64,000 nt of DNA from contig PBTY01000003.1 of NCBI GenBank assembly GCA_002729235.1, positions 1-64,000 of the forward strand, written 5' to 3'. Below are positions 10,138-33,973 of this stretch, one piece after another. The position numbers and the translations under genes were made by a program. The stretch's first letter is position 1, and every line of letters begins with the position of its first letter. Below the pieces are notes generated by a model. The model was not told the origin of the DNA. It worked only from the letters and a program-made list of their open reading frames with translations, and made no database searches. This DNA comes from Rickettsiales bacterium (GTDB lineage: Bacteria; Bacteroidota; Bacteroidia; Cytophagales; Cyclobacteriaceae).

Positions 10138-10827
10138 ATGAATACAACACGTCAGGAGTCGGCTGTTATCTATTTGTCGGACCAACGTAAGGAGGTTTTG
10201 AATAAAGATCATATCAAAAAAGAAATTTTGGGTAACAACCAGTTAGGCTTACCAGAGCGATATGCGTTCCTTAATTTGATCGCGTTGAATGAAGTTAATA
10301 TCAACGCATGCAAAGAAATGGAAACGGCTATAACTCAGAAAACTCTGGTTGTTTTATTGCCAATTCATGGGGAATTAGTCTACAAGGCGCTAACAGATGT
10401 CACTACTATTGACGTGGGTGAGCTTGTAGTATTCTCACTAGAGGAGGGACAGATATACAACGTATTCAATCCATATAAGGAGAATTCAATTCAATATTTA
10501 GAACTGCATTTTTATAACTCTAACGTTCAAGACAACCACGTCAGTTTTGACCTGCAAGCCAGCACCAACAATCTCATCGAGCTCATGAATACTGTTGATA
10601 TCAAACTTAGTCTGGGCATGTTTGAAGGAAGGTCCGAGGGAGCTATTTCTATTCGAAATGCTACTCGAGGGGTGTTTTCTTATGTTCTTCAAGGTGCATT
10701 TGAATTCCAAAATCGATTATTACAAGTCGGAGATAGTTTAGCACTTTGGGATTTACCAACTCAGGAATTGATTGAATTTGAAGCACTTTCAAATGGTGCA
10801 ATTATATTGACTATTGAATTTGTCTAA
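10138..10827 (+). CDS. Pirin/YhaK-like bicupin protein
   Basis: The 229-residue protein lacks a signal peptide. The C-terminal 80 residues resemble the quercetin 2,3-dioxygenase-type C-terminal cupin of YhaK/pirin-like proteins: Gly-Val-Phe-Ser-Tyr-Val-Leu-Gln-Gly-Ala-Phe-Glu, then Leu-Gln-Val-Gly-Asp-Ser-Leu-Ala-Leu-Trp. The N-terminal half shows a second cupin-like pattern, with Leu-Pro-Ile-His-Gly-Glu-Leu near residue 75 and Val-Gly-Glu-Leu-Val-Val-Phe. The clustered metal-binding histidines of true pirins are missing from what can be seen, so it may be a non-catalytic or sensory cupin. It is third in the tight three-gene run after the dioxygenase-like gene. Confidence 0.6.
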   Translation: MNTTRQESAVIYLSDQRKEVLNKDHIKKEILGNNQLGLPERYAFLNLIALNEVNINACKEMETAITQKTLVVLLPIHGELVYKALTDVTTIDVGELVVFSLEEGQIYNVFNPYKENSIQYLELHFYNSNVQDNHVSFDLQASTNNLIELMNTVDIKLSLGMFEGRSEGAISIRNATRGVFSYVLQGAFEFQNRLLQVGDSLALWDLPTQELIEFEALSNGAIILTIEFV

Positions 10828-10945
10828 CCTACTTTATGCTCCTGAATTTCATAGGGTAAAAAGCTAGTCATTTTCTTAAATGTCTCATGGAGTACTTGTA
10901 ATATTGTAGCTTACTTGCAGCGCGATATAACCACCATACTCCACA

Positions 10946-17291: not shown

Positions 17292-20108
17292 TTATTTATT
17301 AAATAAATCAAACTTGATTCCTGCGTTGAATCGAGAGTTGTAGTATTCCATTTGCATGGTTCTATCTTTTTCTCCCTGGTAGTATCTCAAAGGTTGATTG
17401 GTTAAGTTATTTCCTTCAATAAAGAATCTCCAGTTGTTAGTGAAGGCATACGATGCATTCAAATCAAGGAACAATTGCTCATCGTAATATCTGTCAGAGA
17501 AAGCATCTCCACCAACTTCATCTACATAGTCACCAGAGTAGTTAAGAGAAGCTCTTACGATCAATTTCTTAGTCTCGAATGAAAGTGAAGCGTTGAACAA
17601 GTTCTTGGCAGTTCCAGGTAAACCAAGATCATCTCTTAGCTCTCCATCTTCATTAGCCAAACCTGTTGCGCTTGAGTTGGTGTAAGTGTAGTTCAAATAA
17701 ATACCCAAGCCTTTCAAAGCACCTGGTAGGAAATCCAATTGTCTCTGGAATGAAGTCTCAATACCATTGATGGTTCCCGTACCTCCATTTTGTGGTTGAT
17801 AAACTTCAAAACCATCCTCGTTTTCGGTTTGCTGTACGTAAATAAAACCATCAACATTTTTGTAGAAGTAACCGAATGAAACCAAACCGATTGTTTCGAA
17901 ATAGTTCTCTGCCATGAAGTCGATATTCATTGAGGTAGTAGCATCCAACTCTGGATTACCCATGAAAATCTCTTCATCGTCTGGTCTGTTATCCACATAT
18001 GGTACCAAATCATAGTAGTTTGGTCTTGCCAATGAATTGGTCCATGCAGCTCTTAGGATGAGGTTCTGTGTCGCATTGTATTTGAAATGAACACCAGGCA
18101 ATACATTCGTATAGCTATCTGTATTGGTGATTTCTCTAACGAAATCTTCTTCGTTTTCTACTTCATTTCCAGTGTATTCCAAAGAGGTGTTTTCAACTCT
18201 AACACCGAAAGTAGTGCTTAGAGCAGGGGTCAAATCATACTTAACCATCGCATACCCAGCTACAATCGTTTCTGTAGCTAGATAGTTTGATGCCAGGTAT
18301 TCGTCAGGCTTGTCCTCTTGCTCAAATCGAGTTGCGTTGTTTAAGTCAAGACTACCTAACCACTCACTTGAAGCAAAAGATCCAGCCTCATATTCACTGC
18401 CTGGTAAGAATCCATCGTCTGTTTTATTCGTTGTTGGAACTAAATCCAAAGTCTCGTATTCATCATTTAGGAAGCTGTATTCATAAAAAGATGAGTTGTT
18501 ACGCTCTTTTTCTTTCAATCTGAATCGTGTTCCTACTTTCACAAATCCTCTTTGAGCCAAAGGAAGTTTCAAGTCAATTCTTCCGTTCACATCTGTCTCC
18601 TGAGTGTACTGTTCTTCTTCTGTGATTTCATCCAATTCAAAAGCTGACAGGCTAGTTAAGCCAGCATCATTTCCAGCTAGCGAGAATCCGTCACTTGGAG
18701 CAGCTGTAAATAGTGGCTTTCTAGTGTCAGCCAGGTTTTGGTAGAAAAGCATACCCTGTGGCTCATCTTCACCATCTACTTCTACTTCAGGCTCAGCGTT
18801 GTACTGTACGTATCTTTCATTTGGTCTTTCTTCTGATGCTCGTGACCATGCTCCCATCCAGGTCAATTCTGCTTTGCCAAAAAGGTGCTCACCACCTAAA
18901 GTGAAAGTTCTTACTCTTTGATCCTCTAATCGATGATTGTTTACCCGGTCATTGCCAATACCACCTTTGGTTTGTCTTTCTAAGGTTTCTACAAAAGAAA
19001 CACCATTAGCGTCTGGCTCTCCAATGTCCTTGATTACCAAACGGTATCTATTCTCCCAGTCATCTCTCCAGTTGTACATGCTAGTCAGGAAGATTTTGTG
19101 ACTGTCGTTGAATTTGTAATCCAGATTCAACGAAGCACTTCTTCTGATTCTTTGTACTTCGTATGCTCTGATTTGGAATTCCTCCACATACGCATCGATA
19201 TCATCACCTTTAGTCCACTCTGCTTCGATGTTATCTGACCCGAAGTTATGGTTGTTGTAAGAGAATGAAGCAACTGCTCCTAGTTTGTCATTCAGGAATC
19301 TGTTACCATAAATCAAGCCACCAGTCCAGATTGCTTTTTGAGAAAGTGCGTTGTAACCACTTGCTAGTGTTCCTGAGATACGCTCACCAGATGGGTTGGA
19401 TCTAGTTACAAGGTTGACCGATCCACCAATTGCATCAGCATCCATATCAGGAGTGATGGCTTTGTTTACCTCGATGGTTTGGATCATGTCAGAAGGGATC
19501 AAGTCCATCTGAATGTTTCTGTTGTCTCCTTCTGCCGAAGGGATTCTGTTTCCGTTGATCATTACTGAGTTTAGTTGAGGTGCTAAACCACGGATGATAA
19601 TGTTTCTTGCCTCTCCCTGATCACTTTGCATGGTGATACCTGGGATTCTTTTCATCGCATCTCCAATGTTCGCATCAGGGAAACGACCAATTTGATCCGC
19701 AGCTACTACGTTGGTGATGTTGTCATTGGTTCGTTGTTGGTTCAGTGCTTTTGCCTGACCTTTCAGTCTATCGCCTAGTACCATTACACCTACTCCCATG
19801 ATCACCCCTGGCTCCAGGTCGGCATTCATTTCATTCACTCCATCAACAAGTGAAATGGTTTCTTCTTTAGTAGAATATCCAATGTAGGATACCTTGATAG
19901 TGTGTTCGCCAGTAGGTAGGTTTAGAATGGTATAGAAACCATCAATGTCTGTGACTCCACCTGTATTTTCAAGGTCAGTAACCTGAACAGTTGCACCTGG
20001 CATTCCCAGTCCGTTCTCGTCTAAAATACGCCCTTTTAACGTTACTTGAGCATTCACCACGAAGCTTGCCAGTAAGCAAAATGATGTAATGAGTAAAGAT
20101 TTTTTCAT
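17292..20108 (-). CDS. TonB-dependent receptor of the phytase locus
   Basis: A 938-residue outer-membrane receptor. It has a signal peptide to about residue 20, then a carboxypeptidase-regulatory domain (Gly-Arg-Ile-Leu-Asp-Glu-Asn-Gly-Leu-Gly-Met-Pro-Gly-Ala, about 25-105). The plug has Gly-Asp-Ala-Met-Lys-Arg-Ile-Pro-Gly-Ile and Ile-Ile-Arg-Gly-Leu (about 140-240), and Ile-Glu-Val-Asn-Lys-Ala closes the plug. A large barrel with a SusC/IroN-like Asn-Ser-Leu-Ala-Arg-Pro-Asn-Tyr motif (about 685) follows. No SusD lipoprotein gene accompanies it. Directly downstream lie the phytase and phosphatase genes, so inositol phosphate or a released product is a reasonable substrate guess. Its upstream region carries TGTATA direct repeats. 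Confidence 0.88.
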   Translation of the reverse strand: MKKSLLITSFCLLASFVVNAQVTLKGRILDENGLGMPGATVQVTDLENTGGVTDIDGFYTILNLPTGEHTIKVSYIGYSTKEETISLVDGVNEMNADLEPGVIMGVGVMVLGDRLKGQAKALNQQRTNDNITNVVAADQIGRFPDANIGDAMKRIPGITMQSDQGEARNIIIRGLAPQLNSVMINGNRIPSAEGDNRNIQMDLIPSDMIQTIEVNKAITPDMDADAIGGSVNLVTRSNPSGERISGTLASGYNALSQKAIWTGGLIYGNRFLNDKLGAVASFSYNNHNFGSDNIEAEWTKGDDIDAYVEEFQIRAYEVQRIRRSASLNLDYKFNDSHKIFLTSMYNWRDDWENRYRLVIKDIGEPDANGVSFVETLERQTKGGIGNDRVNNHRLEDQRVRTFTLGGEHLFGKAELTWMGAWSRASEERPNERYVQYNAEPEVEVDGEDEPQGMLFYQNLADTRKPLFTAAPSDGFSLAGNDAGLTSLSAFELDEITEEEQYTQETDVNGRIDLKLPLAQRGFVKVGTRFRLKEKERNNSSFYEYSFLNDEYETLDLVPTTNKTDDGFLPGSEYEAGSFASSEWLGSLDLNNATRFEQEDKPDEYLASNYLATETIVAGYAMVKYDLTPALSTTFGVRVENTSLEYTGNEVENEEDFVREITNTDSYTNVLPGVHFKYNATQNLILRAAWTNSLARPNYYDLVPYVDNRPDDEEIFMGNPELDATTSMNIDFMAENYFETIGLVSFGYFYKNVDGFIYVQQTENEDGFEVYQPQNGGTGTINGIETSFQRQLDFLPGALKGLGIYLNYTYTNSSATGLANEDGELRDDLGLPGTAKNLFNASLSFETKKLIVRASLNYSGDYVDEVGGDAFSDRYYDEQLFLDLNASYAFTNNWRFFIEGNNLTNQPLRYYQGEKDRTMQMEYYNSRFNAGIKFDLFNK

Positions 20109-20203
20109 CGGTTGTTTTGTCAGTGTTTTGTTTGATGAGCCAATGATAGATTCGGCATGTTAACTAGGTGTGAAAACCCCATCAACAAAACGGCAACAAG
20201 GGT

Positions 20204-20268
20204 ATACAGGAGCATATACAAAAAAGCAACAGCATTTTGTAACTAACAGGTATACAGGTAGGTATATA
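20204..20268 (-). promoter_or_regulatory. Two TGTATA direct-repeat sites upstream of the phytase-locus receptor
   Basis: On the minus strand, TGTATA-N6-TGTATA occupies 20221-20204. A second, looser copy, TATATA-N6-TGTATA, occupies 20268-20251. Each pair has half-sites 12 bp apart, about one helical turn. On the plus strand the same sites appear as two copies of GGTATACAGG, 47 bp apart. They resemble the 11-bp-spaced repeats at 23923 and 28492 and may bind a TPR-HTH regulator encoded alongside. Confidence 0.5.
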
Positions 20269-20283
20269 TTAAATCGGTGTTAA

Positions 20284-21954: not shown

Positions 21955-22102
21955 GTCTTAGTTGATGGATTCTCAACGAAATTAATGGTGGCAATGAGAA
22001 AACGGTAGTTCTTCGAAAAACGATAACAGAGGCTTAATGTGGAGGAAATAGATTAAAGAGAGGTTATCTAAATCTTCCAGCCAATGGACACTTTGGAGTG
22101 AC

Positions 22103-23922: not shown

Positions 23923-23980
23923 TGTATAGTGCTTGTATAGTCTAAAAACTTGGTTTAAATGGTTTAAATCGGGTCTTTTG
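23923..23980 (+). promoter_or_regulatory. Direct-repeat activator-type promoter (site 1)
   Basis: TGTATAGT occurs at 23923-23930 and again at 23934-23941, 11 bp apart. Eight nt later comes TTG (23950-23952), and 20 nt after that GTCTTTTG (23973-23980) as a weak -7 box. The arrangement matches site 2 at 28492-28548, where 18 of 19 repeat nucleotides are identical. The next ATG is at 24003, 80 nt from the start of the repeat. Confidence 0.6.
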
Positions 23981-24002
23981 CTAAAACCAAAAGGACTGAT
24001 TA

Positions 24003-24068
24003 ATGAAACATTTTCTGCTTGCTATGTTGCGAAATACTCTTTTCGCCATAGCTTCCAAGCCCCCATGA
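24003..24068 (+). CDS. Possible 21-residue peptide or truncated gene start
   Basis: ATG at 24003 opens a short frame with a signal-like start (Met-Lys-His-Phe-Leu-Leu-Ala-Met-Leu) that stops at 24068 after Lys-Pro-Pro. It lies about 23 nt after the -7 box of the repeat-bearing promoter, the position a leader peptide or a real gene start would have. It may be the remnant of a gene lost by frameshift or deletion, a leader peptide, or noise. The rest of 23914-24222 (309 nt) shows no convincing gene. Confidence 0.25.
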   Translation: MKHFLLAMLRNTLFAIASKPP

Positions 24069-24222
24069 CTTACTTACGAACTAACCTTCTATGATTATAT
24101 TAATGGTGAACAGACGTAACGATTCACATTAAGCGTCGTTTAATCTTCTTCTTATAACTACAGAATTAGTTGAGAAAATTGAGTTATCTCAGTTGGACCT
24201 CTCCTAATGAAAATAACTGGGA

Positions 24223-24765
24223 ATGTCGAGATTAAAGAGTGCTTTCGAAATCATGCAGGAGGTTGCAACCTTTAAGTGTTACAGCAAGAAGGAGAAAATT
24301 TTAGATTCTGATAAAATATCCAAATCAATTTGTGCCATCCAGGAAGGGGTCGTGAGGCACTACGTAATTGATAGAAATGGCAACGACAAAACCTTAAGAA
24401 TATCTAAGGAAGGAGACCTGTTTTTTTCTTCGATAGTTAGTTTTTTTAAGAATGAGCCCTCTTATATCATATGCGAAGCACTGACGGACACAAAACTCCT
24501 GACCTGGAGCAAAACACAGATCGATGAACTGGCAAGTAAAGAACCTCTTATTGAGGCATTTCGCTATCAGAAACTAATTGATTTCATTGTGGAAAAACAT
24601 AAAAAGGAAATGTCTCTGATGATTCATTCTGCTGAAGACCGGTATCGCGAATTTTGCGAGGTGAATCATGAGTTGTTTAACAGAATTCCTCATTATGTCA
24701 TTGCATCCTACCTGAACATGACCCCAGAAATGCTTTCAAGAATCAGAAAACAGAGCATTTCTTGA
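24223..24765 (+). CDS. Crp/Fnr-like regulator with degenerate HTH
   Basis: A 180-residue cytoplasmic protein with a cyclic-nucleotide-binding beta-barrel. Signs are Ile-Cys-Ala-Ile-Gln-Glu-Gly-Val-Val-Arg-His-Tyr near residue 37, Ile-Ser-Lys-Glu-Gly-Asp-Leu-Phe-Phe-Ser near 65, and a long dimerisation helix near 110-140. The C-terminus is short: Ile-Pro-His-Tyr-Val-Ile-Ala-Ser-Tyr-Leu-Asn-Met-Thr-Pro-Glu-Met-Leu-Ser-Arg-Ile-Arg. This is the single HTH typical of small Bacteroidota Crp-like proteins. The residues that bind cAMP in E. coli CRP are not recognisable, so the ligand is unknown. It precedes the run of secreted-protein genes. Confidence 0.85.
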   Translation: MSRLKSAFEIMQEVATFKCYSKKEKILDSDKISKSICAIQEGVVRHYVIDRNGNDKTLRISKEGDLFFSSIVSFFKNEPSYIICEALTDTKLLTWSKTQIDELASKEPLIEAFRYQKLIDFIVEKHKKEMSLMIHSAEDRYREFCEVNHELFNRIPHYVIASYLNMTPEMLSRIRKQSIS

Positions 24766-24826
24766 TCTAGTTCAATGAAATTGACCTCCTACTTGCTACA
24801 GATTTGCTCATCAATCAAAAACGCAA

Positions 24827-25399
24827 ATGTTAAAGCAAGTGCTATTAATCATTCTGACCTGCATATTTTTTGAGGTCGGCGCACAAGACATCAATAAGTT
24901 TTCTCTTTCTGGAATAAATGAAAGCATCGCTTTCCCATTTACTCGAAATGCACCTATCCATCCGGGTGCTGAGATAGGATATGTTCTAAAAGAGAAGGAT
25001 AAATCCAGATTGATCCGGTCACATAGTGTCTATGTAGGCTGGTACTATCACACCAAAGTGCAAAATGCTTCCTATCTCCGTGCCGAAACAGCGTGGTTAT
25101 TCAAGGTTAGAAAATTTGCCACATTGGACCTTTTTACTGGCTTGGGGTATATGCATACTTTGTATCCCGGGGATATTTATGAATTGAACTCCTCAGGGGA
25201 TTTTGAGAGGATCAATCAGATCGGTAAGCCACGAGCTTTGGGTACAATAGGCTTTGGCTTCACGCTGAAGAATAATTACTTGTTGGAGCCTTTTATTCGG
25301 CAGGAGATTGGCTTGGAGACACCTTTCGCTAATGGTTTACCGGTGATGATTCATTCATTTCTAAAGGTTGGCACCTACATCAAAATCAGCAAATCATGA
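24827..25399 (+). CDS. Putative outer-membrane beta-barrel protein
   Basis: The 190-residue protein has a signal peptide ending Val-Gly-Ala-Gln (cleavage near residue 20). It then shows alternating aromatic/hydrophobic strands (Ser-Val-Tyr-Val-Gly-Trp-Tyr-Tyr-His, Leu-Asp-Leu-Phe-Thr-Gly-Leu-Gly-Tyr, Gly-Thr-Ile-Gly-Phe-Gly-Phe-Thr-Leu) typical of an eight-stranded outer-membrane barrel. No specific family is recognised. Its stop overlaps the start of the serine hydrolase gene (ATGA), so the two are translationally coupled. Confidence 0.7.
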   Translation: MLKQVLLIILTCIFFEVGAQDINKFSLSGINESIAFPFTRNAPIHPGAEIGYVLKEKDKSRLIRSHSVYVGWYYHTKVQNASYLRAETAWLFKVRKFATLDLFTGLGYMHTLYPGDIYELNSSGDFERINQIGKPRALGTIGFGFTLKNNYLLEPFIRQEIGLETPFANGLPVMIHSFLKVGTYIKISKS

Positions 25400-26565
25400 A
25401 GAAACTTGTTTATGTTTTGCTGATGCTGGTTTTGTTGTCTTGTGGTCAGGATGCAGATCTTCCAGCAACCTATTATGAGTGTCAGTTTGCTTTTCCTGAT
25501 TCTAGTTTAAACCATCCGAAAGCAGCCATCTATCAGGATATCCTGGATCGAAACCGCAAAAAAGGAATTATTGGAGCTGCCATGATGGTGAAAGATGCTG
25601 AAGGTGTCTGGCTTGGATCTAGTGGTAAAGCAGATCTCAGTGCAAATATCGACGTGACTCCCTGCAACCGGTTTTTAATTGCCAGTATAACCAAGTCTTT
25701 TACTGCTTCCACGATTTTCAAATTGGTAGATCAGGGATTATTAACCATAGATGATCCTGTGAATCGATGGATTAGTCGTGAAATCACAGATAAGCTAGAA
25801 AACGCCAATGAATCGACGATTAAGCAACTGTTGAATCACACCAGCGGAATTCCCGATTACATAACGCTGCAATATGATTTGGATAGAATCAATGTAGAGG
25901 ATAATAAATGGCGTCAAGAGGACATTCTCAAGTATGCCTATGGAAAAAAGGCGACTCACAATGTTGGTGAGACTTACTACTATTCCAATACCAACTACCT
26001 GCTTTTAGGCATGATCATCGAGAAGGTGTCAGGCCTTACCCTTTCAGAGGCTTACAAATCGCTATTGTTTAGTCCTCTAGGACTTGAAAATGCTTATTAC
26101 AGTACAACTCATCCCATTCCGACAGGTACGGTCATGGGATATATTGATCTCTATGGAAATGGACAATATGCAGAAAGCCAATTTCTGTATGAAGATGAAC
26201 TCAACACCGGTGATGGAGGTATTGCTATCAATGCCTACGATCTGGGTGTCTTTTTCGAGAGCCTTCTCAACGGGAAGGTTGTGAGCAGCGAGTCACTGGA
26301 AGTGATGACCACATATGAGGATTTGCCATCTGATTGGGTAGATGAAGATTTTGGTCACTTTAAGAATGGCCATGGTCTAGAATATAATAAAACGCCTTAT
26401 GGCAACAGCGTAGGACATACAGGAGGAATAGATGGTTTTGCCTCCATTGCTCAATATTTTCCAGAGCAGAATGCCACCTTCATTCTACTGATTAACAATG
26501 TGTCTTATGATGATCAACCTAGATTAAACATTTATCGAGAGACACTTCAAGCCATGTTTGAATAA
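25396..26565 (+). CDS. Serine beta-lactamase-like hydrolase lipoprotein
   Basis: A 389-residue lipoprotein (Leu-Leu-Ser-Cys, Cys16) of the class C beta-lactamase/D-aminopeptidase family. The nucleophile motif is Ser97-Ile-Thr-Lys100. The second motif is Tyr196-Ser-Asn198 (in Tyr-Tyr-Tyr-Ser-Asn-Thr-Asn-Tyr). The third is His-Thr-Gly-Gly near residue 347, in place of Lys-Thr-Gly. Most such proteins are esterases or peptidases acting on peptidoglycan fragments or small esters, not resistance enzymes. It overlaps the upstream barrel gene by 4 nt and is followed by another outer-membrane-like gene, so a surface or periplasmic unit is likely. Confidence 0.88.
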   Translation: MKKLVYVLLMLVLLSCGQDADLPATYYECQFAFPDSSLNHPKAAIYQDILDRNRKKGIIGAAMMVKDAEGVWLGSSGKADLSANIDVTPCNRFLIASITKSFTASTIFKLVDQGLLTIDDPVNRWISREITDKLENANESTIKQLLNHTSGIPDYITLQYDLDRINVEDNKWRQEDILKYAYGKKATHNVGETYYYSNTNYLLLGMIIEKVSGLTLSEAYKSLLFSPLGLENAYYSTTHPIPTGTVMGYIDLYGNGQYAESQFLYEDELNTGDGGIAINAYDLGVFFESLLNGKVVSSESLEVMTTYEDLPSDWVDEDFGHFKNGHGLEYNKTPYGNSVGHTGGIDGFASIAQYFPEQNATFILLINNVSYDDQPRLNIYRETLQAMFE

Positions 26566-26617
26566 GATAGGATCAAATACATACAATCAAAAACACAAGT
26601 AAAAACCACAACGACTA

Positions 26618-27436
26618 ATGAAAAAAATAATGCTTTTAGTGTTCCTGATAACACTTTTCAGTCACGCAAAGGGTCAGGGATTGCAGAACACATCAAATCA
26701 TCAATGGACTATTGGACTAGGTTATCAGAATGCCAGAACTTTTGATCGAAATATTTCGCCACTGATTTATTCTTCGAATAATGGCGTTTTGTCATCTTCG
26801 TTTTTAAAGAACAAGCTTGATACTCAATGGACTTTGGGACTTACCCTATCTGCAGGTAGTAATCAGTCCAAACGACATGGTAAACGAACCGCTGTGATTC
26901 ATGATCCTGATCCACTGGTTGGAGAATCTGAGGAAACGATATATGAAATCAACCCGGCATTGTCATATGTTGACTTGGAGTTGTCATATGGTTTCCAGTG
27001 GAAATTGGACAATTCATTCGTTGGATTTGAGGCCTATGATAGATTACTGTATGGTGCTCTTGGTGCAGACACCTGGTTTTTTAATCAGCTGAGTGTTGCT
27101 CCATCATACAGAAGAACGGTTTACAGCAACAGCCCTGTTGAACTAACAATAGAAGGTAGTTTGCCTGTGTTTTCTTACTTGCTAAGACAGCCTTACACTT
27201 TGGACCCTAGTCTACCGGAAGAAAGTTATTTCAAGGCGTATTTATCCACTGGCTCATCGGTCGCTACTATCAATCAATTCCAGCAAGTCAATCTAGGTTC
27301 TACCCTGACGTACGAGTTAAAAAACGGGAAAAACCTGGGCGTGTCCTGGCAATTTATGTGGATGAACTACAACAATATTCCGGATCGTCAACTAAGATCT
27401 TACTCCAACTCCATCAACATTACTTACCAACTCTAA
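26618..27436 (+). CDS. Putative outer-membrane protein, unknown family
   Basis: The 272-residue protein has a signal peptide (cleavage near His-Ala-Lys-Gly-Gln) and a beta-rich body with repeated aromatic-ended strands (Trp-Thr-Ile-Gly-Leu-Gly-Tyr-Gln, Trp-Thr-Leu-Gly-Leu-Thr-Leu-Ser, Tyr-Gly-Phe-Gln-Trp-Lys-Leu). It ends in Asn-Ile-Thr-Tyr-Gln-Leu, consistent with an outer-membrane barrel. It sits 52 nt after the serine hydrolase gene and 12 nt before the S41 protease gene. The function is not recognised; a barrel of about 12 strands is a guess from length. Confidence 0.7.
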   Translation: MKKIMLLVFLITLFSHAKGQGLQNTSNHQWTIGLGYQNARTFDRNISPLIYSSNNGVLSSSFLKNKLDTQWTLGLTLSAGSNQSKRHGKRTAVIHDPDPLVGESEETIYEINPALSYVDLELSYGFQWKLDNSFVGFEAYDRLLYGALGADTWFFNQLSVAPSYRRTVYSNSPVELTIEGSLPVFSYLLRQPYTLDPSLPEESYFKAYLSTGSSVATINQFQQVNLGSTLTYELKNGKNLGVSWQFMWMNYNNIPDRQLRSYSNSINITYQL

Positions 27437-27448
27437 TTGAACAGGATC

Positions 27449-28474
27449 ATGAAAAAATTAACAGTACTTCTTCTATTGTCAACCTTAGGGTCTTGTGATG
27501 ACATCTTGTTGGGTGAAGAATCAGCCAATACACCTTTGGCCAATTTTGAAAGTGTTTGGAATGAATTTGATGCCAAATATGGGTTGTTTGAGTCCAAAGG
27601 AATTGATTGGGACTCTGTGTATACCGTTTACAGACCTCAGGCGGAACGACTCTCCTCTGATGCAGAGTTGTATTCATTGCTCACCGAGATGTTGGCCGGA
27701 TTGAATGATAGCCATGTGGCTCTACTTCCTACAGAGGAGTCAGGTTTTGAGTTTTTTCAATCTGGGGCGTTGGGCAAGCTGGATTCAATGACGGACTTCA
27801 GCCTGGAAATCATTAAGGAGAATTACCTGACCAATCATGAGTTCGCAGATCCCTTCTTTACCTACGGAATACTCGAGAGTAATATTGGATACATCCATAT
27901 TGAGGGGTTTAGTGACTTACCAAAATTTTTAGATGAGCCAATGAGTGACGTACTCAATGCGCTTGAAGGTACAGATGGAATCATTGTAGATGTTCGCGGT
28001 GGTTACGGAGGAGAAGACCTGGCGGGGCAGTTTTTAGGCGGCCGCTTTGCCAGCTCCTCCCAACCATACATGAAAAGTAGGGTGAGAAACGGTCCCAACC
28101 CTAATGATTTTACCTCATTCGAAACCTGGAATCTGATACCTACTGGTGATTTTCAATATACCAAGCCAATTGTCGTTTTGACTCACCGATTTACTATCAG
28201 TGCTCGGGAGACTTTTTGCCTGGCTATGAAAGTGCTGCCCCAGGTGACTTTTATTGGAGATACCACAGCAGGGGCTTTTTCCAACCAGATTAATCGCGAA
28301 ATGCCCAATGGTTGGGGATATTCTCTCAGTATAGGTCAGTGGGTTGATGCTAATAATCAATCATACGAAGGAGTTGGGTTGGTACCGGACATTTTGATCG
28401 AAAATGAGAAGGCCGATTTGCTCAACGGGGTTGATGAGGCACTTGAAAGAGCACTTGATCAGTTGGCCCTGTGA
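27449..28474 (+). CDS. S41 family peptidase lipoprotein
   Basis: About 341 residues from the ATG at 27449; an in-frame TTG at 27437 would add four residues before a complete lipoprotein signal (lipobox Leu-Gly-Ser-Cys). The C-terminal half is the tail-specific protease fold. Visible motifs are Ile-Gly-Tyr-Ile-His-Ile-Glu-Gly-Phe, Gly-Ile-Ile-Val-Asp-Val-Arg-Gly-Gly-Tyr-Gly-Gly, Thr-Ile-Ser-Ala-Arg-Glu-Thr-Phe (with the likely nucleophile Ser), and Gly-Asp-Thr-Thr-Ala-Gly-Ala-Phe-Ser. No PDZ domain is evident. It is a periplasmic or surface peptidase of unknown substrate, in a run with two outer-membrane proteins and a hydrolase. Confidence 0.85.
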   Translation: MKKLTVLLLLSTLGSCDDILLGEESANTPLANFESVWNEFDAKYGLFESKGIDWDSVYTVYRPQAERLSSDAELYSLLTEMLAGLNDSHVALLPTEESGFEFFQSGALGKLDSMTDFSLEIIKENYLTNHEFADPFFTYGILESNIGYIHIEGFSDLPKFLDEPMSDVLNALEGTDGIIVDVRGGYGGEDLAGQFLGGRFASSSQPYMKSRVRNGPNPNDFTSFETWNLIPTGDFQYTKPIVVLTHRFTISARETFCLAMKVLPQVTFIGDTTAGAFSNQINREMPNGWGYSLSIGQWVDANNQSYEGVGLVPDILIENEKADLLNGVDEALERALDQLAL

Positions 28475-28491
28475 TGCCAATTAAATCAAGT

Positions 28492-28548
28492 TGTATAGTC
28501 CTTGTATAGTTGCAAAAATTTGCACTAAGGATCGTAAACGTAAATTTT
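28492..28548 (+). promoter_or_regulatory. Direct-repeat activator-type promoter (site 2)
   Basis: TGTATAGT at 28492-28499 and 28503-28510 (11-bp spacing) is followed 8 nt later by TTTG (28519-28522). TAAATTTT (28541-28548) follows, a one-mismatch -7 box. The ATG of the Big2 lipoprotein gene is at 28574. Geometry and sequence nearly duplicate site 1 at 23923. Confidence 0.65.
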
Positions 28549-28573: not shown

Positions 28574-29755
28574 ATGAAAAGAATTGCTTTCTTAATTTCC
28601 TACGTATTGGTCGTAATCACAACATCCTGTGGTGATGATTCGGTGGGTCCAGATACAGAAATCAATCTTAATAAGTCATCCGTCATAATGAAGGTCTCCG
28701 ATTATGACACATTGAAAGTGATGTCTGAGATCGATACCAATAGTATTGTCTGGGAGAGTAGTAATCCAGAAGTGGTGTCGGTGGACAACGGATTATTATT
28801 GGCTCTTAAAAGCGGAACATCAGAAGTAACTGCCTCATACAAGGGTGTTACTTCCTCGTGTGAGGTGACTGTTGACTTAACCATTTTCTTAGGAGGGTCC
28901 GCAAAGGAGTTTGAGGCCGCCTATTGGAAAAATGGTGTAATCAATTACTTAACCACTACAGGTAATGATGAGGGTTATTATTCGCAAGTCAATACCATCA
29001 AGGTTTTGAATGGGCAGGTTTTGGCAGGTGGACTGAAAATGGAAAGCAATTCTGTTATCTGGAGAGGTGAAGAGGAGATCATACTCGGAGAGGGATTTGA
29101 AGAGGTCCAGGAAATGGCCATCAAAGGAAATGACGTGTTTGCCATCATTGATAATGGGGGTCTTTATAAATGGAATGAAAATGATGGCCCTACCTTTTTA
29201 CGGGACGAAGGACATATAACAAATGCATTATTCGTTGAGGGCGGGGATGTATATGTCGGTGGAGTTGTCAAAACCGGTGAAGAATACAGACCGGCGATCT
29301 GGAAAAACGGAGATCAGCTTATTCTAGACTATGAGCAGTATGCCTATATCACTGATGTTTATGTAGAAAATGGCGATTTCTATTCGGTAGGATTAGAAGG
29401 AATAGGCTCGGGTGTTTATCAGATTAAATATTGGGTAAACACTACCAAATATAACCTCGCAGATTCTCCAGATGCCTGGGCAAGTTGTGTAATTGTGGAA
29501 GCTGGTGACCTCTATATTTCCGGGCATAACAACGATCGTCCGGCGGTGTGGATAAATGGAGAAATCAGCTACTATGCAGAACAAGGGGTAACAGGGGTGG
29601 TGAATGAAATGCTTTTATTTGACGGTGACTTTTATGCTGCTGGGGTATTGCGAATTGGATTCAATTCTGTGGGTGTGGTCTGGAAAAACGGTGAAGAGCT
29701 ATTCAGAACAGACATTTTCGAAGATGCCAACATTAAAAGCATTGAAATCAAATAA
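28574..29755 (+). CDS. Lipoprotein with Big2 domain and WKNG-type beta repeats
   Basis: A 393-residue lipoprotein (lipobox Thr-Thr-Ser-Cys near residue 19). Residues about 30-105 form a Big2 immunoglobulin-like domain (Val-Trp-Glu-Ser-Ser-Asn-Pro-Glu-Val-Val-Ser-Val-Asp, then Val-Thr-Ala-Ser-Tyr-Lys-Gly-Val-Thr). The remainder repeats a unit of about 45 residues built around Val-Tyr-Val-Gly-Gly and Pro-Ala-Ile-Trp-Lys-Asn-Gly (Tyr-Trp-Lys-Asn-Gly, Ile-Trp-Lys-Asn-Gly, Val-Trp-Ile-Asn-Gly, Val-Trp-Lys-Asn-Gly), which suggests a propeller. It is probably surface-exposed. It is the first gene after the direct-repeat promoter at 28492, and the next genes follow with short gaps. Confidence 0.75.
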   Translation: MKRIAFLISYVLVVITTSCGDDSVGPDTEINLNKSSVIMKVSDYDTLKVMSEIDTNSIVWESSNPEVVSVDNGLLLALKSGTSEVTASYKGVTSSCEVTVDLTIFLGGSAKEFEAAYWKNGVINYLTTTGNDEGYYSQVNTIKVLNGQVLAGGLKMESNSVIWRGEEEIILGEGFEEVQEMAIKGNDVFAIIDNGGLYKWNENDGPTFLRDEGHITNALFVEGGDVYVGGVVKTGEEYRPAIWKNGDQLILDYEQYAYITDVYVENGDFYSVGLEGIGSGVYQIKYWVNTTKYNLADSPDAWASCVIVEAGDLYISGHNNDRPAVWINGEISYYAEQGVTGVVNEMLLFDGDFYAAGVLRIGFNSVGVVWKNGEELFRTDIFEDANIKSIEIK

Positions 29756-29760
29756 TTGTA

Positions 29761-30294
29761 ATGGGGAGAATAAAATGCATTTGTTTGATAGCTAGTAGCT
29801 TGATTATCAGGTTAAGCACTTTGGCTCAAAGTAATCATTACTCTGAAGAAATAAATGATTCTATCAAATACTCGATCTCATTAGGGCATGAGGGATTACT
29901 TGTCTCTATTGATTTTAGGGAAAATGATAATCAGGAATATCGATGGGTGGAATTATATGTCAAATCCGTAGACAATAGATTGTATAGACTTCATGCTTCT
30001 GGTCAATTAGGTGAACAAGTTTTCAATGGACAGGAATGGACAGAAGAATGGGACTGGGGAAATAATCAATACTGGGAAGCTACCACTCATGGACTGAATA
30101 CGGAAAGGAACAGGTTCTACGAAATATTGCTTCAAGGTGATTTGGCGAAAGATTCCATGACCATGATGTTGGTGTTGTTCATAGCTGATAAGAGAAAGGA
30201 TTTCAGTACCAAACCAACAGAAATAACTTTCCCAGAATATGCCTCAAGAGATAATCCTGATACATGGAAAACAATAAACATAACTAAATACTGA
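29761..30294 (+). CDS. Secreted hypothetical protein
   Basis: The 177-residue protein has a signal peptide ending near Ser-Thr-Leu-Ala-Gln and a soluble body with many Trp and charged residues (Trp-Thr-Glu-Glu-Trp-Asp-Trp-Gly-Asn-Asn). No family is recognised. It starts 5 nt after the Big2 lipoprotein gene and ends 6 nt before the FISUMP gene, so it belongs to the same transcript. No catalytic motif is seen. Confidence 0.65.
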   Translation: MGRIKCICLIASSLIIRLSTLAQSNHYSEEINDSIKYSISLGHEGLLVSIDFRENDNQEYRWVELYVKSVDNRLYRLHASGQLGEQVFNGQEWTEEWDWGNNQYWEATTHGLNTERNRFYEILLQGDLAKDSMTMMLVLFIADKRKDFSTKPTEITFPEYASRDNPDTWKTINITKY

Positions 30295-30300
30295 TATGAT

Positions 30301-30873
30301 ATGAGAGTGCTTCTATTCCTGATTTTTGCGTTTGGACTTGCCACTCAAGGCTCCTTCATTGATTCTCGCGATCAACAACAATACACGCTACTAACCATTG
30401 GCAGTCAGCAATGGTTAAAGGAAAATCTTCGATTCGTTCCAAGTGGAAAGGGGATACGATCATCTGGTGGTTACTATAGTGCATCTGAGTTAAAGTCCGT
30501 CTGTCCGGAGGGATTTCGTATTCCTTCAGTAGAAGAATGGAAAGAGCTTATTCAACAGATGCCTGGAAAGCGCAACAGCAGAAAAGGAAGGCTGGTAGCA
30601 GTTGCATCCCTTCAAGAATTCGGATTGCAATTGGGTGGTCAAGAGCGTATGGATAGCGTCTATCTAAGTAATCAAATGGGTTTCTATTGGACATCTAGCG
30701 ATACGCTGAAAACCTATTACAAAGAACTTGACAATGGTGCGCAAAGACACCTGATTGGTATTCATCTGTGGAGTAGCGGAGAGCCAGACTCTACGAATGT
30801 GGAACCCACCTATATGTTGGCAAAAAATTATCAGTCCGGGGTTGGGCTGAGTTGTAAATGCATCAAAGAATAA
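30301..30873 (+). CDS. FISUMP-domain secreted protein
   Basis: A 190-residue secreted protein with an N-terminal hydrophobic signal. The body matches the Fibrobacter succinogenes major paralogous (FISUMP) domain: Asp-Gln-Gln-Gln-Tyr-Thr-Leu-Leu-Thr-Ile-Gly-Ser-Gln-Gln-Trp-Leu-Lys-Glu-Asn-Leu near 25-44, then Cys-Pro-Glu-Gly-Phe-Arg-Ile-Pro-Ser-Val-Glu-Glu-Trp near 65. A Phe-Tyr-Trp-Thr-Ser-Ser segment lies near 125, and Gly-Leu-Ser-Cys-Lys-Cys closes it. Such domains occur in surface proteins of Bacteroidota and Fibrobacteres with undefined function. It lies in the run of short-gap secreted genes after 28574. Confidence 0.75.
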   Translation: MRVLLFLIFAFGLATQGSFIDSRDQQQYTLLTIGSQQWLKENLRFVPSGKGIRSSGGYYSASELKSVCPEGFRIPSVEEWKELIQQMPGKRNSRKGRLVAVASLQEFGLQLGGQERMDSVYLSNQMGFYWTSSDTLKTYYKELDNGAQRHLIGIHLWSSGEPDSTNVEPTYMLAKNYQSGVGLSCKCIKE

Positions 30874-30878
30874 CACCA

Positions 30879-31799
30879 ATGATTAAGTATGTTTCTGTGA
30901 ATTCCGTAATGATAGTGCTACTCTTCGGAGTAGTACTCATTACAGCTTGCCGTGATTTAGGCGCACAAGTACAAAATACAAAACCGGAAGTTCTTTTACT
31001 CGGTGTTTACCATTTTAACAATCCGGGAATGGACACGCACAATATGTCGATCGATGACTACCTGAGTGATCATCGACAAAAGGAAATCGAAGAAGTGGTT
31101 TCAAGATTGGCGGACTTCAGGCCAACCAAAATACTGGTAGAGTTCACCAGTGAAAATCAACCAAAGCTGGATAGTCTCTATGGACTTTATCAGAATGGGC
31201 AGGTTAGACTAAATGAAATTCCACGAAGTAGAAATGAAGTTTATCAGCTTGGTTTCCGTTTGGCGAAGCAAATGAATATCGCGGCTCCAATCGCTATTGA
31301 TTATCCAGGTTTTTGGCTTGGAAATTACGCCGATTTTATTGCAGATACATTAGAGTATAGCAAATACCTGGAGCAGCATAAAATGCAAGCCATGCAAGTA
31401 GCTAAACAATCTGAGGTGTTCAAAAAAAATACAGTTAGAGAAAACCTGTTGACTATCAATAGTTGGGAGTGGATTAAGACCAATCATGATTATTACAACA
31501 ATGTTGCTATTGATGTTAGAGACGAAAAGGGAGTCATGTTTAACTATCAGGAAATGGAAACTGAAATCGATGATCAGCCTTATTTCATGCGGTCCTTTGA
31601 CTTCAATAACATCGGCATAGAGTTGGTTGCCGAGTGGTATAAACGCAACTTATTCATCTATCGCAATCTATTGGATCAAACAGAGCAAGGTGATCGAATC
31701 CTGGTGATTTACGGGGGCGGTCATATCAGATATTTACATCAATTATTGAGTGATAATCCTGATGTTGTATTGGTGAAACCTCAGAATTATTTGAAATAA
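30879..31799 (+). CDS. DUF5694 (TraB/GumN-like) secreted protein
   Basis: About 306 residues from the ATG at 30879. An upstream ATG at 30858 would overlap the FISUMP gene by 16 nt. A hydrophobic signal with an Ile-Thr-Ala-Cys lipobox leads into Leu-Leu-Gly-Val-Tyr-His-Phe-Asn-Asn-Pro-Gly, where Gly-Val-Tyr-His is the Gly-x-x-His signature shared with TIKI/TraB-type metal-dependent proteases. Pro-Thr-Lys-Ile-Leu-Val-Glu-Phe and a C-terminal Gly-Gly-Gly-His-Ile-Arg-Tyr-Leu supply further conserved Glu and His residues. This layout is that of DUF5694; hydrolase activity is inferred, not shown. It is followed by a small NTF2-like lipoprotein gene. Confidence 0.72.
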   Translation: MIKYVSVNSVMIVLLFGVVLITACRDLGAQVQNTKPEVLLLGVYHFNNPGMDTHNMSIDDYLSDHRQKEIEEVVSRLADFRPTKILVEFTSENQPKLDSLYGLYQNGQVRLNEIPRSRNEVYQLGFRLAKQMNIAAPIAIDYPGFWLGNYADFIADTLEYSKYLEQHKMQAMQVAKQSEVFKKNTVRENLLTINSWEWIKTNHDYYNNVAIDVRDEKGVMFNYQEMETEIDDQPYFMRSFDFNNIGIELVAEWYKRNLFIYRNLLDQTEQGDRILVIYGGGHIRYLHQLLSDNPDVVLVKPQNYLK

Positions 31800-31812
31800 A
31801 ATGCATTATCAT

Positions 31813-32259
31813 ATGAAAAATCTTGTCCCGATAATCATACTATATTGGATGGTATCAGCGTGCAGTCAACAGGCAGATATAATCACATCAAATGATCTTC
31901 AGCGACTTAGGTATCTCAAGGAGGTAGAATGGCCCAAAGCCTACAGAGAACAGGATGCAGTACTATTGGATCGAATTCTCAGAGAGGACTTTCAGCTCAT
32001 TGATCAAGCAGGTGGTCGGTATTCCAAAGCAGATGAAATCTCGTGGATCAAAGAGCATGCTATGGAGCATGATTCCTTCTATTATGAAATTAAAAGGTTG
32101 GATGTTTACCCCAATGGGACCGCAGTTGTGGCTGGTACAGGCCATATCTTCAATGACACAACGTATGCTATATATGAGTCAAGCAATGTACTTATAAAAG
32201 AAAACGATGAGTGGAAAGCAATCCTATCACAGGTCTCTGGTTATAAGGAAATCAATTAA
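31813..32259 (+). CDS. NTF2-like (DUF4440-type) lipoprotein
   Basis: About 148 residues from the ATG at 31813; the ATG at 31801 would add four residues before a lipoprotein signal with lipobox Val-Ser-Ala-Cys. The body fits the cystatin/NTF2-like fold: Trp-Pro-Lys-Ala-Tyr-Arg-Glu-Gln-Asp-Ala-Val-Leu-Leu-Asp-Arg-Ile-Leu, Phe-Gln-Leu-Ile-Asp-Gln-Ala-Gly-Gly, Val-Val-Ala-Gly-Thr-Gly-His-Ile, and Glu-Trp-Lys-Ala-Ile-Leu-Ser-Gln. Such proteins bind small molecules or act as weak enzymes. It overlaps no neighbour and is followed after 6 nt by the BNR-repeat gene. Confidence 0.75.
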   Translation: MKNLVPIIILYWMVSACSQQADIITSNDLQRLRYLKEVEWPKAYREQDAVLLDRILREDFQLIDQAGGRYSKADEISWIKEHAMEHDSFYYEIKRLDVYPNGTAVVAGTGHIFNDTTYAIYESSNVLIKENDEWKAILSQVSGYKEIN

Positions 32260-32265
32260 TCGATT

Positions 32266-33300
32266 ATGAAACGGACAATTCTAACTCTCACGGTTTTGGC
32301 CGGTTGTCTGTCACTGCTTGCCCAATCCCGATTAATCAAATTAATTGAAAATGAGGGAAAGGACTTGACCATTGATGGCCTGGACCAACCGATCCACAAG
32401 GTTGCTATTCTGAATGAAATGCTCTGGGTCACAGACTATGGCAATGGAAACGTATTTAAAAGCGCTGACAATGGTGAGACCTTTAAGAAAGTAGCTACAC
32501 TTGGGTCAGAATATTTTGAATCAATCCAGTTTTTAGATGAAGAGATTGGTTTTGTTTCAGGAGATTATGGCTTTGTGTATAAAACCCTGGATGGTGGAGA
32601 GACATGGGTTGATGTCAGTCCACCAGTTGAAAACAGATTATTGGAGCGTTTCCGAAATGATTCTACTAAAAATCAGACTCCAGACGGAAATTTTGCAGCT
32701 TACTATTCGATGCATTTTATCAATGCTTCGCAAGGATATGTTTCTGGTTTTGCTTACAATCCAAAATTGGGATTTAGAGACTCATTCAAACGCTTGTTTT
32801 TTTCCACTCAAGACGGTGGAGCCAATTGGAAATTAGAGGACGCTGAGGGTCAAAAGCAGATGATTCAATTAGCTATAGACAATCTGGGGAATCCTTTTAC
32901 TTCAATCGAGAATGAATATTTTCTTCCAAAACAAATTAGTTGGACTGTCAAGAAAAATCGAAAGGCGGATATTCTGATCAAACAGGATTATTTGAAGGGT
33001 ACTATTGATACAGTATATCTTGAAAGCATCTCGTTTGAAAAGAGAATGCTCCGAAATATCACCTTTATATCCGAGGACATTGGTTTTGTGTTTGGAGGTT
33101 CACTAGATCCTGATAATGAGTTAGCGATTATTTACAGCACTTCTGATGGAGGTAAGAGCTGGAAGTTTTATCCATCCAAACTACCACACATTCATGTGGC
33201 TGGAGCCAATAAGGACCACCTGTTCCTTTTTGGGAAGGAAAGTTTTATGAAACGGGTCCCAATTTCCAACTTGATAAAAATCCTTGTTGATGAAGAGTAG
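32266..33300 (+). CDS. BNR-repeat (YCF48/sialidase-like propeller) secreted protein
   Basis: The 344-residue protein has a signal peptide ending near Leu-Leu-Ala-Gln. At least four Asp-box (BNR) repeats are visible: Ser-Ala-Asp-Asn-Gly-Glu-Thr-Phe, Thr-Leu-Asp-Gly-Gly-Glu-Thr-Trp, Thr-Gln-Asp-Gly-Gly-Ala-Asn-Trp, and Thr-Ser-Asp-Gly-Gly-Lys-Ser-Trp. These are the signature of sialidase/YCF48-type propellers. The catalytic Arg triad and Tyr/Glu pair of true sialidases cannot be recognised, so a binding or structural role is more likely. It closes the gene run that starts at 28574. Confidence 0.78.
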   Translation: MKRTILTLTVLAGCLSLLAQSRLIKLIENEGKDLTIDGLDQPIHKVAILNEMLWVTDYGNGNVFKSADNGETFKKVATLGSEYFESIQFLDEEIGFVSGDYGFVYKTLDGGETWVDVSPPVENRLLERFRNDSTKNQTPDGNFAAYYSMHFINASQGYVSGFAYNPKLGFRDSFKRLFFSTQDGGANWKLEDAEGQKQMIQLAIDNLGNPFTSIENEYFLPKQISWTVKKNRKADILIKQDYLKGTIDTVYLESISFEKRMLRNITFISEDIGFVFGGSLDPDNELAIIYSTSDGGKSWKFYPSKLPHIHVAGANKDHLFLFGKESFMKRVPISNLIKILVDEE

Positions 33301-33355
33301 CATAAAAAAGTAGTAAACACCGTCTCAAAATCGATTGAACTTAAACAAATAAAAA

Positions 33356-33634
33356 ATGGAAACAATATTGACATTACATCCTGAGGGGAAACAGGGAGTC
33401 AACATATCCAGGAGCAAATACGAAACCATTAGAGAGTTTATTCTGAAGACATTGAAGGAGGCTGGCGAACTAAGTTTTGCAGACCTGGATGATTTGGCCG
33501 TGGACTCACTTTCTGAAACATTTGATGGTAAAGTGACCTGGTATATAGTTACTGTAAAACTGGACCTGGAGGCACGAGGTGAAATTGAGCGAGTAAAGGG
33601 TAAAAAAACTCAGCATTTGAGATTGAAAGTGTAA
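33356..33634 (+). CDS. Small conserved protein, winged-helix-like (resembles DUF6958)
   Basis: A 92-residue soluble protein beginning Met-Glu-Thr-Ile-Leu-Thr-Leu-His-Pro-Glu-Gly-Lys-Gln-Gly-Val-Asn-Ile. It continues with Lys-Tyr-Glu-Thr-Ile-Arg-Glu-Phe-Ile, then Val-Thr-Trp-Tyr-Ile-Val-Thr-Val-Lys-Leu-Asp-Leu-Glu-Ala-Arg-Gly and Ile-Glu-Arg-Val. The helix-helix-wing pattern suggests a small winged-helix protein. I associate it tentatively with DUF6958. No signal peptide. It precedes a tautomerase-like gene by 3 nt. Confidence 0.6.
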   Translation: METILTLHPEGKQGVNISRSKYETIREFILKTLKEAGELSFADLDDLAVDSLSETFDGKVTWYIVTVKLDLEARGEIERVKGKKTQHLRLKV

Positions 33635-33637
33635 TCA

Positions 33638-33973
33638 ATGCCTATCCTAAACTGTTACCTGACACATGGTAATATATCCAATGAATCGTGGGACCAGTTG
33701 ATTCGAATGTGGGCAGAAAGGATCCGTGTTGATTCTAGTGATATATGTATACATGTGTTCACAGATTTTAGAAACTTCGGAGCTCAATATCAGCTCAAAG
33801 TAGAACTCTTTTTGCCCTCTATTTGGTCGCAAGAGGCGACAGAAACTATCCAGAATACTTTTTTAACACTTGTGGAAGAAGTGTTGAAAATTCAGCAGGA
33901 TGACACTTTTTTGATGACTCAGCTCATCCATTCAGGACTTGTATTTGACAGAGGAAAACAGGAAGTGTGGTGA
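33638..33973 (+). CDS. Small protein with tautomerase-like N-terminus
   Basis: A 111-residue protein beginning Met-Pro-Ile-Leu-Asn-Cys-Tyr-Leu. The Met-Pro start, the helix Ser-Trp-Asp-Gln-Leu-Ile-Arg-Met-Trp-Ala-Glu-Arg-Ile, and the second strand Ile-Cys-Ile-His-Val-Phe follow the beta-alpha-beta order of 4-oxalocrotonate-tautomerase-fold proteins, in which Pro becomes the N-terminal base after Met removal. A second such unit seems to start near residue 50 (Tyr-Gln-Leu-Lys-Val-Glu-Leu-Phe-Leu-Pro). The family assignment is inference from pattern only. Confidence 0.45.
   Translation: MPILNCYLTHGNISNESWDQLIRMWAERIRVDSSDICIHVFTDFRNFGAQYQLKVELFLPSIWSQEATETIQNTFLTLVEEVLKIQQDDTFLMTQLIHSGLVFDRGKQEVW

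Follow-up and report, generated by a model that had tools for sequence, protein, structure and literature searches.

What reads a short direct repeat that stands, almost letter for letter the same, ahead of two neighbouring gene clusters? The question is raised by the first 64,000 nucleotides (the window) of contig PBTY01000003.1 in GenBank assembly GCA_002729235.1, a genome named Rickettsiales bacterium and placed by its GTDB lineage in the Cyclobacteriaceae (Bacteroidota). Two elements on its plus strand, TGTATAGTGCTTGTATAGT (23923-23941) and TGTATAGTCCTTGTATAGT (28492-28510), differ in one of 19 nt, as an original prediction made from the letters alone had noted, and the element seen there is real. 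Most likely it is regulatory. We consider it likely that the repeats are an 11-bp direct-repeat operator for P0001, a predicted transmembrane regulator with tetratricopeptide repeats (TPR) and a LuxR-type helix-turn-helix (HTH) domain, which would bind both copies and control the two adjacent operons.

Two direct repeats and the adjacent regulator

Both elements have the form TGTATAGT-N3-TGTATAGT, that is, one 8-mer in tandem with an 11-bp period, with half-sites at 23923-23930 and 23934-23941 in candidate operator 1 and at 28492-28499 and 28503-28510 in candidate operator 2. The likeness between the two places spans 29 nt at 83%, runs through an A-tract to the TTG of the -33 element, and then ends. 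Site 1 begins 9 nt behind the stop codon of the P0001 gene and site 2 begins 17 nt behind that of an S41 peptidase gene. At both places the -33 element follows the repeat after 8 nt, just as predicted, with TTG at 23950-23952 in promoter 1 (23950-23980, plus strand) and TTTG at 28519-28522 in promoter 2 (28519-28548, plus strand). According to PMC9723704, the -7 box of sigma-A promoters in Flavobacterium psychrophilum is TAnnTTTG. A -7-like box had been assigned to both promoters; promoter 2 has a good one, TAAATTTT (28541-28548, with TTTT and not TTTG), but the weak box of promoter 1 retains the TTTG part only (23977-23980, 36 nt past the second TGTATAG). The start codons expected 80 and 82 nt after the repeat starts are in place (24003 and 28574), but the ATG at 24003 opens a reading frame of just 21 codons, and the first listed gene of that unit begins at 24223.

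With one mismatch allowed, TGTATA-N5-TGTATA has two matches in the window against 0.29 expected, a number reached in 3 of 100 shuffles, and the window has one case of an identical 8-mer tandem with equal period at two places far apart, against none in 200 order-3 Markov sequences. In the whole 6.55-Mb genome, an 18-specified-base pattern with up to three mismatches gave eight matches against eight in the reversed control; the window sites have zero and one mismatch and the remaining six have three each, and the loose TGTATA-N5-TGTATA pattern (at most one mismatch) gave 45 matches against 36. Because only the window sites have fewer than three mismatches and the loose pattern is close to its control, the signal reads as real but local, a local regulon of two sites; a global regulon was ruled out, since apart from these two sites the genome-wide matches are near the control.

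P0001 (22207-23913, plus strand) is composed of an N-terminal hydrophobic segment, TPR repeats (Pfam TPR_12, 6.2e-33), one putative transmembrane segment at about 388-406 and a C-terminal LuxR/NarL-like HTH domain. The hydrophobic segments, 2-26 and 388-406, were placed by hydropathy. The model of the C-terminus (mean predicted local distance difference test score 72.6, predicted template modelling score 0.41) matched LuxR/NarL-type folds in 49 of the 50 listed cases and a sigma factor in the other, with probabilities up to 1.00, TMt up to 0.82 and a best E-value of 0.039 (none below 0.001). As judged from this predicted structure, the HTH is of the LuxR/NarL type, the same as in the domains of PDB entries 1je8 and 8u3b. 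In sequence, the NCBIfam model MctR matches residues 506-565 at 6.1e-5, under its cut-off, the best PDB sequence match is NarL (E 0.054), and no Pfam HTH model matches at 1e-3. Both P0001 and the divergently encoded neighbour P0002 are matched by the NCBIfam models BT3442 (up to residue 553 in P0002) and FimS, with scores well short of the curated thresholds (70 and 77 against 940 for BT3442; 123 and 70 against 600 for FimS). With P0001 as query, six to 15 matches to its TPR or LuxR parts were found per genome in seven genomes, so that P0001-type proteins look numerous in these bacteria; no ortholog was found in the five genus members searched, where matches over most of the length have at most 25% identity. 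A 37-nt imperfect inverted repeat (73%; 22005-22041 and 24125-24161) brackets the P0001 gene and site 1. Among RNA families, two tRNAs were the only matches in the window at gathering scores.

The original prediction had offered both neighbouring TPR-HTH proteins as readers of the repeats. P0001 is the best candidate and is preferred, since the operator assigned to P0002 is of another kind. In the proposed mechanism the elements would be two copies of one operator, with 8-bp half-sites in direct orientation, 11 bp apart, just upstream of -33, and this spacing would therefore place two DNA-binding domains on the same face of the helix. P0001 would act as a one-component membrane regulator, its TPR sensor predicted to lie outside the cytoplasm and joined by one transmembrane helix to a cytoplasmic LuxR/NarL-like HTH; it may bind the operator as a head-to-tail dimer and bring RNA polymerase to two units of presumed extent. 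The first (24223-28474, plus strand) would comprise the genes of a cyclic-nucleotide-binding regulator (24223), a 190-aa protein (24827), a serine hydrolase (PF00144, 25396), a 272-aa protein (26618) and the S41 peptidase (27437). The second (28574-33973, plus strand) opens with a putative lipoprotein gene (28574, weak Big-like matches) and would continue with genes for a 177-aa protein, Fib_succ_major, DUF5694, DUF4440, YCF48-like, DUF6958 and a 111-aa protein. P0004 was considered as a conserved target and dropped, as it has no full-length match in 79 genomes besides its own.

Recurrence of the element in other genomes

Among 390 genomes of the family, the 16-base motif TGTATAGTNNTTGTATAG has six exact matches, two here, three within 5.3 kb in G039 (another genus) and one inside an open reading frame (ORF) of G158; none occurs within one mismatch in the five genus members searched. 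Of 40 listed places matching with a single mismatch, 37 were examined (all except site 2 of the window and sites A and B of G039), 21 of which lie within ORFs. TTTG stands at 35-37 nt in four of the 37, three of them intergenic (site 1 of the window, G343 and G388) and one in an ORF; there is no LuxR-like ORF within the 3 kb of G388. An order scan with the A-tract added, covering 390 genomes drawn without G039, found this genome only, with two control matches. In G004, from the genus of the window, the serine hydrolase, the 272-aa gene and the S41 gene are kept and followed by Fib_succ; no repeat is present behind S41, nor any counterpart of the genes at 28574-30294, and the upstream side of the cluster is cut by the contig end.

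In G343, from a third genus, TGTATAGGTTTTGTATAG is located 127 nt past the stop of a TPR-LuxR gene (TPR_12, 1.7e-17) and precedes a co-directional gene whose start is signal-like; its -7 box is TAGTTTTG. This locus was retrieved by the DNA pattern and not by the protein, and in trees of 28 C-termini of LuxR type, hand-picked from those collected, its regulator forms a pair with P0001 (FastTree 0.914; IQ-TREE SH-aLRT 90.9, UFBoot 87). Besides itself, it has one match in 62 genomes of its genus, at 30% identity, and therefore no footprint could be obtained there. The three G039 sites (A, B and C) lie beside a TPR histidine kinase gene and likewise have a common A-tract (CTAAAAA); by eye, site A resembles site 1 of the window over about 35 nt with a 1-nt gap. 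Behind site A (L118, about 10500-11030) there is an apparent remnant of an exported surface-protein gene, as seen by eye from a signal-like start and a sorting-domain-like end. The three-site region (G000 C4 next to G039 C7 838000-881000; L183, L118, L184) contains two TPR histidine kinase genes that resemble each other, together with genes for a TPR-LuxR protein and a LytTR response regulator and several large genes of surface-protein type.

The offset from the end of the second TGTATAG to TTTG is 36 nt at site 1 of the window, at G039 A and B and at G343. Thus four of five sites share one offset, which none of 20000 first-order resamples does; G039 C was left out of this test as a near copy of B. 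The original prediction had put a regulator site just upstream of -33, read by a TPR-HTH neighbour, and this view is supported by the common spacing from operator to -7, by the adjacency to TPR-HTH genes in two other genomes and by the similar architecture behind P0002 orthologs. We hypothesise that the combination of operator and -7 geometry may be general. Searching 395 genomes of the class for TTGTATA-N5-TGTATA followed 35-38 nt later by TTTG yielded two matches against at least three in the reversed control, and none in this genome, because the pattern demanded TTGTATA and TTTG, which leaves the window sites out. The number of matches is no more than the control; the weight lies in the location of one of them, L257 (G763, a different family), which follows the stop of a TPR-HTH gene at about 190 nt and precedes a co-directional gene whose start is signal-like. 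Its regulator matches TPR_12 (1.9e-7) and a LuxR-like HTH model of our own built from four sequences (E 2.3e-17), and its -7 box is TACATTTG, the TA of which lies outside the scan pattern. The second match overlaps a histidine-kinase-like ORF and was taken as chance.

Tandems of 8-mers (at most one mismatch) were also counted by period, with the window and the pattern-fetched loci excluded. Period 11 occurs 15 times near 28 P0002-group genes, where 23 other periods have a mean of 5.1 and a maximum of 10, and nine times near 21 LuxR genes outside that group, where the 23 have a mean of 2.7 and a maximum of 5; the controls gave 5 against about 9.6 in random intergenic DNA of this genome and 5 against 5.0 at other loci. 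With the pattern-fetched loci included, there were 37 tandems of period 11, compared with 12-19 for the periods 9, 10, 12, 13 and 14.

In a collection of species representatives, from which records of the window's own genome were possibly left out, 19 exact stretches were found, nine in multi-copy elements and ten scattered. The multi-copy elements are built on TGTATAGT with an 11-bp period and belong to Myroides phaeus (five stretches: L037, L041, L042, L044, L051) and to a metagenome-assembled genome (MAG) of Prolixibacteraceae UBA5740 (four stretches: L043, L045-L047); they are apparently unrelated to the operators of the window. Two Firmicutes contigs (L040, L053) have in common a conserved promoter-like region in which TGTATAGTGCTTGTATAGT precedes -35/-10-like boxes. 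In L058-L061 (G000 contigs C44 and C51), TGTATAC-N4-TGTATACC occurs twice, 32 bp apart; the stretch is present on two contigs, ahead of a reading frame that looks integrase-like by eye.

The divergent paralog P0002 and its own boxes

P0002 (20284-21954, minus strand) is a divergent TPR-LuxR paralog with TPR repeats, one internal hydrophobic segment and, by eye, a lipoprotein-like start. Its own class of candidate operator is seen at 20181-20231 (minus strand), where the boxes TGTTGCTTTTTTGTATAT (20231-20214) and TGTTGCCGTTTTGTTGAT (20198-20181) stand 33 bp apart, upstream of a TonB receptor gene (17292-20108). In the same region (20201-20273), between P0002 and the TonB receptor gene, CCTGTATACC occurs twice with partners at a 12-bp period, an arrangement that G004 and G001 do not share. 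Matches to P0002 at E 1e-50 or better occur in 34 of 146 genomes and 27 of 126 genera. The analysis covered 30 loci of the P0002 group including the window, of which 21 with a co-directional next gene within 60-450 nt were taken for box analysis; the next gene encodes a TonB receptor in 12, a phytase in four, a phosphoesterase in one and another product in four.

A motif-free count of periods in these 21 stretches has peaks at 11 (52 against 9.7 shuffled), 32 (61 against 9.6) and 33 (65 against 9.8). The 11-bp direct repeat TGTTGCC-N4-TGTTAAC is present at 11 or more of 14 positions in 17 of the 21 loci, the window included (shuffled mean 0.285, maximum two of 21). At least two boxes (10 of 14) are present in 13 loci, and the distance between neighbours is 32 or 33 bp in 12 of 15 pairs. 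TTTG follows the last chosen box after 35-37 nt in nine of the 21 loci against about one expected, a computed and uncurated count in which automatic selection took the wrong box as the last one at some loci (e.g. L197, L214). As seen in the window and in L198-L218, the boxes of these regulators stand behind the regulator gene, are often doubled and mostly precede TonB-receptor or phytase genes.

Competing explanations and known systems

Several observations weigh against the original prediction or against P0001 as the reader of an operator of this kind. The genome-wide scan of the loose pattern, which the original prediction had named as its check, came out near random, taken literally, which we read as a regulon of two local sites. 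The repeat is absent behind S41 in G004, which keeps flanking genes; G004 is also without a P0001 ortholog. No such operator stands ahead of P0001's own gene, and the proteins of P0001 and G343 are about 33% identical in the C-terminal 190 aa. In G039 there is no simple fit, since the neighbour is a TPR histidine kinase, which is neither a TPR-LuxR nor a DNA-binding protein. The nearest TPR-LuxR genes found in that genome are about 15 and 40 kb away, their recognition helices are by eye unlike that of P0001, and the 40-kb one stands beside the P0001/G343 pair in one tree (0.58) and not in the other. Site 2 of the window and G039 C have TTTT at 35 and not TTTG. The -7 spacing is present independently in one of ten additional repeat strings, L222, and by construction in L257; seven strings are without it, and L188 ends too early. 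In addition, the P0002-group figures overstate independence, because the consensus was derived from the same loci on which it was tested and these loci are related by descent, five being of one genus. Our confidence in P0001 as reader, and in a general class of such regulators, is slightly reduced because the class-scan count is not above its control and the -7 spacing is found at few other LuxR loci.

The G039 neighbourhood could instead point to another class of regulator, of OmpR/PhoB or LytTR type, perhaps acting downstream of TPR histidine kinases. It is known that PhoB/OmpR boxes are direct repeats of 11-bp period which lie close upstream of the promoter and are read by winged-helix response regulators, and a direct repeat of that period is found here; a LytTR response regulator is encoded about 19 kb from the G039 sites, which themselves adjoin the kinase gene. 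The half-site letters differ from those of PhoB/OmpR boxes, no winged-helix response regulator is present among the genes scanned at 14188-41861 of the window, and LytTR sites are longer-spaced. Moreover, the sites in G000, G343 and G763 adjoin TPR-HTH genes, and the P0002 footprint is independently an 11-bp repeat with similar -7 spacing, so that we regard a regulator of this other class as unlikely. It is more improbable still that the sites have no present regulatory function and derive from a small dispersed repeat or from the duplication of a promoter. The multi-copy elements on TGTATAGT in Myroides phaeus (five) and the Prolixibacteraceae MAG (four) would suit that idea, as would G039 B and C, which have about 110 bp in common by eye and look duplicated; this genome, however, has two copies rather than many, both at nearly equal distance from promoter elements, and their likeness stops after 29 nt. 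The Crp-like protein encoded at 24223 lies between the two sites and might read both, but Crp sites are palindromes and those of the window are direct repeats, and the G343 site is flanked directly by a TPR-LuxR gene and the gene downstream of it, which makes Crp a very improbable reader. An operator read by P0001 remains the explanation that we favour.

Such an operator would differ from those of known systems. NarL is a soluble response regulator that binds inverted heptamers, whereas the repeats here are head to tail and the proposed reader is a predicted membrane protein. According to PMC3878776, predicted SusR-like sites in Bacteroides are direct repeats 67 or 77 bp apart on one helix face, and predicted sites of hybrid two-component systems (HTCS) are direct repeats about 21 bp apart, again on one helix face. 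SusR-like regulators, too, are described there as periplasmic sensors whose action is mostly confined to the neighbourhood of their genes; the spacing here is 11 bp, and the SusR DNA-binding domain is given as not significantly similar to that of other known factors, whereas that of P0001 is LuxR/NarL-like. From the HTCS sites, which resemble ours in being direct repeats on one face, the sites of the window differ both in spacing and in that HTCS are AraC-like regulators. In the literature covered, to which subscription journals mostly do not belong, we found, judging by titles and the openings of abstracts, neither TPR-LuxR regulators of Bacteroidetes or Flavobacterium nor an operator described for them, and a search for the pattern TGTATAGT with 'Bacteroid' gave nothing relevant by title among the matches listed.

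Considering the loci together, we tentatively propose, at somewhat less than even chance, that the Bacteroidota possess a large class of membrane-spanning TPR-LuxR regulators, so far undescribed, whose binding sites are 11-bp direct repeats at a constant distance from the sigma-A -7 box and mostly adjoin the regulator genes themselves, with half-site letters (TGTATAG, TGTTGCC/TGTTAAC, TGTATAC) that vary by subfamily. In the case of the P0002 group, one regulator would be tied to TonB-receptor or phytase genes, which are the next gene in 16 of 21 loci. A direct-repeat operator with fixed promoter geometry would make the targets of such regulators predictable from sequence, and, if the proposal is true, the half-site letters of the subfamilies would be a readable protein-DNA code for many local switches.

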